A stretch of DNA of 64,000 bases, taken from the NCBI RefSeq assembly GCF_019734885.1, contig NZ_JAAXCM010000031.1:62001-126000 (forward strand), read 5' to 3'. Made by a program: the position numbers and the translations under genes. Under the pieces are notes generated by a model, which was given only the letters and a program-made list of their open reading frames with translations, was not told the DNA's origin and did no database searches. This DNA is from Pseudocoprococcus catus (lineage in GTDB: Bacteria; Bacillota; Clostridia; Lachnospirales; Lachnospiraceae). Below, piece by piece: positions 43,012 through 44,550 of the stretch (positions are counted from its first letter, which is position 1; every line of letters begins with the position of its first letter).

Positions 43012-43038
43012 GGCACATCCTTTGGATGTGCTCTTTTT
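43012..43038 (+). terminator. ftsZ terminator
   Basis: GCACATCC (43013-43020), TTT, GGATGTGC (43024-43031), T-C-TTTTT. Confidence 0.92.
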
Positions 43039-43084
43039 GTGTAATAGGGAATTCTGAGGAATTCCCTATTACACAAAAAGGCAC
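43028..43084. repeat. Long palindrome with 22-bp perfect arms
   Basis: Left arm 43033-43054 and right arm 43059-43080 are exact reverse complements around the 4-base loop TGAG; after one bulged T (43032), GTGC/GCAC extends it to 43028-43084. It begins inside the T run of the ftsZ terminator and contains GAATTC at the inner end. Next to it lies copy 3 of the dispersed repeat. Confidence 0.92.
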
Positions 43085-43099
43085 TAATGCGCCTGCGAT

Positions 43100-43176
43100 G
43101 CGCACTTGCGCGAAGATGTAGATTGTCGCAAGCGACCGCGTCCGGCGCGAGAATGTGCTTTGGCACATTCTTTTTT
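43100..43176 (+). repeat. Dispersed intergenic repeat, copy 3
   Basis: GCGCACTTGCGCGAAGATG, TAGATTGTCGCAAGCGACC, GCGTCCGGCGCGAG and the perfect 8-bp hairpin GAATGTGC-TTTG-GCACATTC with six T. Most complete copy. It ends against the first Spo0A-like box of the sporulation promoter, sharing the T run. Confidence 0.9.
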
Positions 43177-43240
43177 GTCGAAATATTTATAGGAACCTTC
43201 TCTGGATTTGACAAAATATTTATGGGACATAGGCTATAAT
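43174..43240 (+). promoter_or_regulatory. spoIIG-type promoter with two Spo0A-like boxes
   Basis: TTGACA (43208-43213), 21-nt spacer, TATAAT (43235-43240). Spo0A-box matches: TTTGTCGAA around 43174-43182, a full TGTCGAA, and TTTGACAAA at 43207-43215, overlapping the -35, 33 bp further. The surrounding bases (AATATTTAT) are repeated at both sites. The B. subtilis spoIIG promoter has the same rare over-long spacer and Spo0A sites. Confidence 0.85.
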
Positions 43241-43269
43241 AGACCCGTACCAAAAATCAGGAGGATAGC

Positions 43270-43770
43270 ATTATTTTTTACCAGACTGCCACCTGGGATA
43301 AAATATGCGGGTACGATTACTTCCTGCAATTCCATTATACGCATTTCATAAATCATCACTTAGCAAAGAAACTGCGTCAATGCTACAGGGATCTTTGCTG
43401 TCATCAACGGAAAAATCTTTACCGTGTACAAATCAAAACAGGAATGAAATTAATAGAAACAATAGGGCTTTATGATACAGGGAATCGTTTGTATGAACCC
43501 ATCAGGAAAAAGCCGGTCAGCATTATCGGGAAGGAACTGGCTATGCGTTTGCTTGAAGGGGAACAGGAATGGGGAAGACGATTTCGCCTGATTCCTTACA
43601 GCAGTATTGGCGTGGAAAATGGGCTGATGAAAGGATTTGTTGCGGACGAATTGGTTGTGTTTGTGAACCGATATTCTTTTGTATATGCACATCCGGTTTT
43701 GGCTGTGGCTGAACAGTCCTTTGGTAAAAGGGATGGCTATGAGATCATTTTGCATCCGGACATGATCTGA
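43270..43770 (+). pseudogene. spoIIGA: SpoIIGA pro-SigE protease, N-terminal membrane domain missing
   Basis: The frame is open from 43240 to 43770 and reads through ...LAKKLRQCYRDL, NLYRVQI and then IGLYDTGNRLYEPIRKKPVSII, the aspartic-protease core of SpoIIGA with the catalytic D-T-G (Asp at 43474-43476). The five-helix membrane domain (~150 residues) that normally comes first is absent. AGGAGG stands at 43259-43264 but only ATT codons follow at 43270 and 43273; the first ATG is 43444. So either translation starts at ATT, giving a soluble ~166-residue form, or the gene is dead. Directly upstream of sigE. Confidence 0.75.
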
Positions 43771-43812: not shown

Positions 43813-44550
43813 ATGCGGACAATCAATTATGCAGGGTATCGTATGCTGCGTGGGTTCAGAAGTGTGATTTATAAATCGAATGGAGAAATCCATTATATCA
43901 GCGGAACGGATGTCCTTCCGGTTCCGCTGGAGGGTGAACAGGAAAAAAAGGCCATTGAGATGCTGGCGTTGGAAAAGGAGAGAGAACGGGGACGTAATAT
44001 TCTGATCGAACATAATCTTCGTCTGGTAGTTTATATTGCCAGAAAGTTTGATAATACAGGTGCCGGAATGGAGGATCTGATTTCCATAGGAACCATCGGT
44101 CTGATCAAGGCCATCAATTCCTATAATCCGGAAAAAAATATAAAGCTTGCGACTTATGCATCCAGATGTATTGAAAATGAAATTTTGATGTATTTAAGGC
44201 GCAGCAGCAAATTGAAAATGGAAGTATCGATTGATGAACCTTTAAATGTAGACTGGGATGGCAATGAATTGCTGCTGTCAGATATATTGGGCACGGATGA
44301 AAACGTCATTTACAGTAAAATGGAGGAGGAAGTGAATTATCATTTGCTGTATAAAGCACTGTCAAGACTGTCACCCCGGGAGAAGACAATTATTCAGCTC
44401 CGTTTTGGGATACGAACTTCGGACGGACAGGAAAAAACTCAAAAAGAGGTGGCAGATCTCCTTGGTATTTCTCAATCTTACATTTCCAGGCTGGAGAAGA
44501 AGATCATCGGACGATTAAAAAAGGATATTGTGAGAATGGAAGGGGCGTGA
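43813..44550 (+). CDS. sigE: Sporulation sigma factor SigE, pro-form
   Basis: 245 residues. Region 2 [23 protein letters not shown] and [15 protein letters not shown] are near identical to B. subtilis SigE. A head of ~25-30 residues precedes [16 protein letters not shown], which aligns with the SpoIIGA cleavage region of pro-SigE (EVYYIGGSEALPPPL). ATG 43813 has AGGAGGG about 9 nt before it. Drives mother-cell genes. The pro-sequence is retained although its protease gene is truncated. Confidence 0.93.

Follow-up and report, generated by a model that had tools for sequence, protein, structure and literature searches.

SpoIIGA is a membrane protease that activates the mother-cell sporulation factor sigma-E. 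A 2026 study of Bacillus subtilis argued that the target of SpoIIR is the cytoplasmic domain of SpoIIGA and not its outer loops (PMC13174948). A reduced SpoIIGA is therefore mechanistically plausible, and the premise of a preliminary description of the present locus, that SpoIIGA must be embedded in the membrane for activation, is now questioned in B. subtilis. Such a protein is of interest for the reception of the forespore signal. A natural lineage in which the membrane domain was lost while selection still maintains the protease also offers an independent test of the purpose of that domain. In Staphylococcus aureus, AUU and AUA start codons combined with an extended Shine-Dalgarno (SD) sequence give roughly a tenth of the output of AUG (PMC13009471).

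The window analyzed here is a 64,000-nucleotide stretch of the genome of the gut bacterium Pseudocoprococcus catus. Its forward strand carries, at positions 43270 - 43770, a reduced spoIIGA of 166 codons and a stop. The nearest relatives with a comparable gene belong to the genus of Candidatus Onthocola gallistercoris, which is called the sister genus below.

The protease domain and its operon

The Pfam family PF03419 matches the P. catus product at positions 142 - 284 of 284 only (7e-29; 101.5 bits against a cut-off of 28.4). The match to a family profile built from 43 family members is likewise confined to positions 145 - 279 of 281, the retropepsin-like protease half. The TIGR02854 equivalog cut-off is missed (65.5 versus 209.55 bits). 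The five-helix N-terminal membrane domain is missing, as there are no profile positions before 142 and no hydrophobic helix. The frame is open from 43243 to 43770 and has no ATG, GTG or TTG before 43444. The absence of both the membrane domain and an ATG, as described earlier, is thus borne out. The hexanucleotide AGGAGG, the promoter and the protease core are also present as described.

The active-site motif DTGN is encoded at 43474 - 43485, with residue 69 as the catalytic Asp. The Asp, Gly and Asn of this motif are invariant in 70 family sequences, and all invariant residues of these sequences are retained in the P. catus protease domain. The score of the domain lies at the 57th percentile of those of 61 held-out full-length relatives. 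The genome is a draft in 67 contigs and is 99.99% complete. PF03419 has a single match across all of it, and a profile of the membrane domain has no match at E<=0.1, so the search for a second spoIIGA proposed in the preliminary description turned up no full-length copy elsewhere. The idea that another protease serves in place of SpoIIGA finds no support, given the retained invariant residues and the lack of a second SpoIIGA.

AlphaFold predicts, with high confidence (mean pLDDT of 89 for P. catus), a helix of 32 - 34 residues followed by a retropepsin-like domain in both P. catus and the sister genus. The retropepsin fold with its DTG motif is found in the predicted P. catus model, whose closest structural match has a Z-score of 9.2 (5c9f, the Rickettsia protease APRc) and whose best Foldseek E-value is 2.7e-3. 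A sequence search of solved structures gave no matches. The predicted helix of P. catus (residues 16 - 47, positions 43315 - 43410) occupies the place of the single hydrophobic helix of the sister genus and has the same length as that in the model of the sister-genus locus L077. Its maximum hydrophobicity (KD19) is 0.36, compared to 1.8 - 2.35 in the sister genus. Because the remaining helix is polar, the P. catus SpoIIGA probably either is soluble or has no more than a peripheral attachment. A resemblance between the IIFYQT start of the P. catus product and the IIFYHT end of the relatives' fourth helix was left out, as the alignment is ambiguous.

The sequence TTTGTCGAAA at 43174 - 43183, which on the established consensus we take to be a Spo0A (0A) box, forms a direct repeat with the sequence at 43207. 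The spoIIG-type promoter at 43207 - 43240 consists of TTTGACAAAA (43207 - 43216), a reverse 0A box lying over the -35 region, and TATAAT (43235 - 43240), separated by a 21-bp spacer. The arrangement TTTGACAAA...TATAAT is kept in the promoters of the sister genus. The SD sequence AGGAGG at 43259 - 43264 has AGGAGGTGAT and GGGAGGTGAT as counterparts there. The next gene is sigE, encoding pro-sigma-E (43813 - 44550; NF006158/TIGR02835 above the cut-off). In line with the preliminary description, its product retains the pro-sequence, which has 27 residues and precedes the HYISG site. The reduced gene is in an operon with pro-sigE under a spoIIG promoter to which Spo0A would bind as the activator.

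A palindrome with perfect 22-nt arms (43033 - 43080) is part of a dispersed intergenic repeat (43033 - 43176) that is situated immediately 5' of the first 0A box and has many copies in the P. catus genome. Some parts of it are present at roughly ten or more further sites of this genome, and its right-hand part, from about 43097, is also found in human-gut phage contigs. The palindrome and repeat thus exist as reported, but the suggested link to the rearrangement is not supported: the element is dispersed, lies upstream of the promoter and was not seen beside the reduced spoIIGA in the sister-genus loci read. It is not considered part of the mechanism.

Start codons of spoIIGA

Two ATT codons, at 43270 and 43273, follow AGGAGG at distances of 5 and 8 nt, confirming the ATT reported earlier, and are proposed as a non-standard start (43270 - 43275). 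A survey of 157 distinct full-length spoIIGA genes of the family gives this proposal a context. GTG or TTG is often the start in these genes, and about 15 of the 157 have no usable standard start, with ATT, ATC, ATA or ACG near the SD sequence instead. ATT is in the start position in L024, L029, L056, L065, L073, L103, L181, L199, L232 and L239, all of them full-length Lachnospiraceae genes, ATC in L185 and L197, ATA in L057 and L159, and ACG in L017 and L100. In L056, ATT replaces the ATG of MYYEIYID, and in L181 the start region reads ATT, AAGGAGGTGATAAGCAAATT. As a control, the sigE genes of these loci all (181 of 181) begin with a standard start codon behind an SD sequence. A standard start was also seen for 84 of 86 ftsZ genes, and the remaining two resemble motif mis-hits.

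Because about 15 of 157 relatives are alike in this respect, the control genes start in the standard way and AUU/AUA starts are weak in Firmicutes, the ATT of P. catus is in line with a tendency of the family to translate SpoIIGA weakly. The recurrent ATT and ATC starts suggest that the dosage of SpoIIGA is held low. They also mean that automated annotation will misplace or miss spoIIGA. In the isolate Falcatimonas sp. MSJ-15 (L165), the full-length spoIIGA has an in-frame TGA just 5' of the codons for the conserved N-terminus, and no standard start follows it.

In the sister genus (L077, L201, L202 and L203), AGGAGGTGA or GGGAGGTGA is found just past the SD sequence, so that the SD sequence is followed directly by a TGA in the protease frame. 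No well-spaced start common to all four genomes was found, and in L202 no plausible in-frame start was found near the SD sequence. A programmed frameshift from an SD-adjacent start was considered and rejected, because the frames differ among the species. Three of the four genomes show unusual conservation of the DNA that comes next (GATAAAATCTGTTCACCACCAGATTCTTTTAT), which could form a hairpin. A putative hairpin around GATAAAATCTG...CAGATTCTTTTAT is present in three sister-genus genomes.

Relatives and the origin of the reduced form

PF03419 is found in 262 of 397 family genomes and is missing from 135; among the matches listed, most are full-length. A contig search with the reduced SpoIIGA itself confirmed no close relatives, and SigE was therefore used as the query. 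The resulting scan covered 80 named Lachnospiraceae. In 74 of these, sigE is preceded by an intact spoIIGA of full length, so that a membrane domain of ~150 residues is the correct expectation for the relatives. The other six comprise two genes cut by contig ends, one split between frames, one with an internal stop and two that are reduced. One of the reduced genes is from Candidatus Onthocola gallistercoris (L124), whose SigE is the most similar to that of P. catus (75% identity), and the other is from an uncultured bacterium (L183).

Each of the five sister-genus genomes has a reduced gene. In L204 the gene runs into a contig end. In the remaining four, a single hydrophobic helix and the protease are encoded downstream of the promoter and SD sequence that are also present in P. 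catus. The comparison with relatives that had been called for thus finds the reduced form in five other genomes that were assembled separately, which disfavors a collapsed sequence. In the larger of two trees, built from SigE and FtsZ, P. catus groups with the Onthocola genus, beside L144, which has a full-length SpoIIGA. Because of this grouping, two changes account for the reduced state in that tree, and the reduction is old and common to P. catus and the sister genus. Support for the branch uniting them was 65% (SH-aLRT) in the first tree, where the branch supports were 65 and 92. Another truncated SpoIIGA, in G129, has no ftsZ upstream and originated separately. A separate origin is also probable for L183, which was placed in the first tree only.

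Several other irregular genes were seen in the family. The reduced SpoIIGA of L183 (2430 - 3040) lies behind a spoIIG-type promoter, outside the P. catus clade. A division of the gene into two frames was seen in L154 and L098, both at profile position 54/55, in L076 at the boundary between the membrane and protease domains, and in L092. The apparently short SpoIIGAs of G271, G149, G050, G091, G006, G341 and G400 are located at contig ends and were excluded from the truncations. By comparison, L115 (G196) has a true pseudogene, in which three stops interrupt what is left of spoIIGA.

Function of the reduced SpoIIGA and comparison with known systems

The sister-genus protease domain is under purifying selection, with dN/dS values of 0.25/1.05, 0.25/1.16, 0.28/1.06 and 0.33/2.26 (ratios of about 0.15 - 0.26). 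The genus of P. catus is represented by one genome, and these figures are for the copies of the sister genus only; between P. catus and the sister genus, synonymous sites are near saturation. The P. catus frames of spoIVA (499 aa) and spoIIIAE (430 aa), both sigma-E-dependent genes, are intact, and so are those of sigE and sigG. Because spoIVA and spoIIIAE are intact, sporulation has probably been retained. The earlier suggestion that it is lost is disfavored by these two genes and by the selection on the sister-genus domain. An ATT-initiated soluble protease is the best supported of the three options offered at that time.

We therefore consider it likely that the reduced SpoIIGA of P. catus works and is weakly translated; the ATT start, the solubility, the proteolytic activity and the switching are all part of this reading and are presumed. 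In the common ancestor with the sister genus, the five-helix membrane domain would have been lost down to at most one helix, and the Spo0A-dependent promoter, ribosome-binding site, retropepsin-like protease domain and pro-sigE would have been retained through the reduction. In P. catus, the last helix would have turned polar, giving a protein that is probably soluble or peripheral and is translated at a low level, probably from the ATT after AGGAGG.

The signal for such a protein is a separate matter. SpoIIR is not recognizable in P. catus (no PF09551 match in the genome, compared to matches in 103 of 200 family genomes), nor in two further genomes with a reduced SpoIIGA that were tested, G288 and G129. 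For this reason, a signal, if there is any, would have to reach the cytoplasmic domain, or timing and dosage would have to replace it. SpoIIR is also missing from 35 of 135 SpoIIGA-bearing genomes of that sample, 33 of them besides P. catus and G129, and most of the 35 have a full-length SpoIIGA. The association of SpoIIR absence with reduced SpoIIGA is thus only suggestive, and loss of SpoIIR is a weak candidate for the driver of the truncation, as it is often missing beside full-length SpoIIGA. In genomes that have SpoIIGA and no recognizable SpoIIR, including full-length clades, the sigma-E signal may differ. We propose tentatively, and with less confidence than a working protease as such, that pro-sigma-E in this lineage is activated without a membrane-embedded receptor-protease or SpoIIR, by a small, weakly translated, ATT-started soluble SpoIIGA that is run in the mother-cell cytoplasm by dosage or by some cytoplasmic signal. 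If this is true, one classic forespore-to-mother-cell signal has been rewired.

The main rival to a working protease is that the reduced SpoIIGA inherited from the ancestor is still active in the sister genus, while in P. catus the copy is losing its function and sporulation is disappearing. The loss of even the single hydrophobic helix could be decay, the P. catus gene has no standard start, spoIIGA is wholly missing in the 135 family members mentioned above, and G196 has a spoIIGA remnant with stops. However, the P. catus frame is open through to its normal stop with every invariant residue in place, the protease scores at the family median, the promoter and SD sequence are retained, the four sporulation frames are intact, and ATT starts recur among full-length relatives. 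We regard decay as unlikely. The membrane domain might instead be supplied in trans by a separate, highly diverged gene, with the protease domain docking on it, and G273 does have the two domains in two frames; but the membrane-domain profile has no matches in P. catus and four of five sister genomes and gave one partial match in the fifth, G397 (E=0.004, within a 468-codon frame), which makes this very improbable. That an assembly deletion or collapse took the membrane domain out of a full-length gene is scarcely credible, for although the genome is a draft of 67 contigs with a repeat about 100 bp upstream, that repeat is upstream of the promoter, away from the junction, and four separate sister-genus assemblies have the same layout of promoter, SD sequence and reduced gene.

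The P. catus gene resembles the known spoIIGA genes (PF03419/TIGR02854) of Bacillus subtilis and the Lachnospiraceae in its position before pro-sigE, its Spo0A-type promoter, the DTGN motif and the conserved protease domain. It differs from them in the loss of the five-helix membrane domain (no helices remain in P. catus and one in the sister genus), in the non-standard start codon and in not reaching the TIGR02854 cut-off. A strong SD sequence with ATT in the start position likens it to infC, cvfC1 and ccpN of S. aureus, which combine AUU or AUA with an extended SD sequence (PMC13009471), although these genes are unrelated in identity and function and the P. catus start is a predicted one. 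Retropepsin-like proteases, such as Rickettsia APRc and the retroviral enzymes, share the predicted fold and the single DTG per chain, which implies a dimer, whereas sequence identity to them is ~10 - 20% and the substrate of SpoIIGA is pro-sigma-E.
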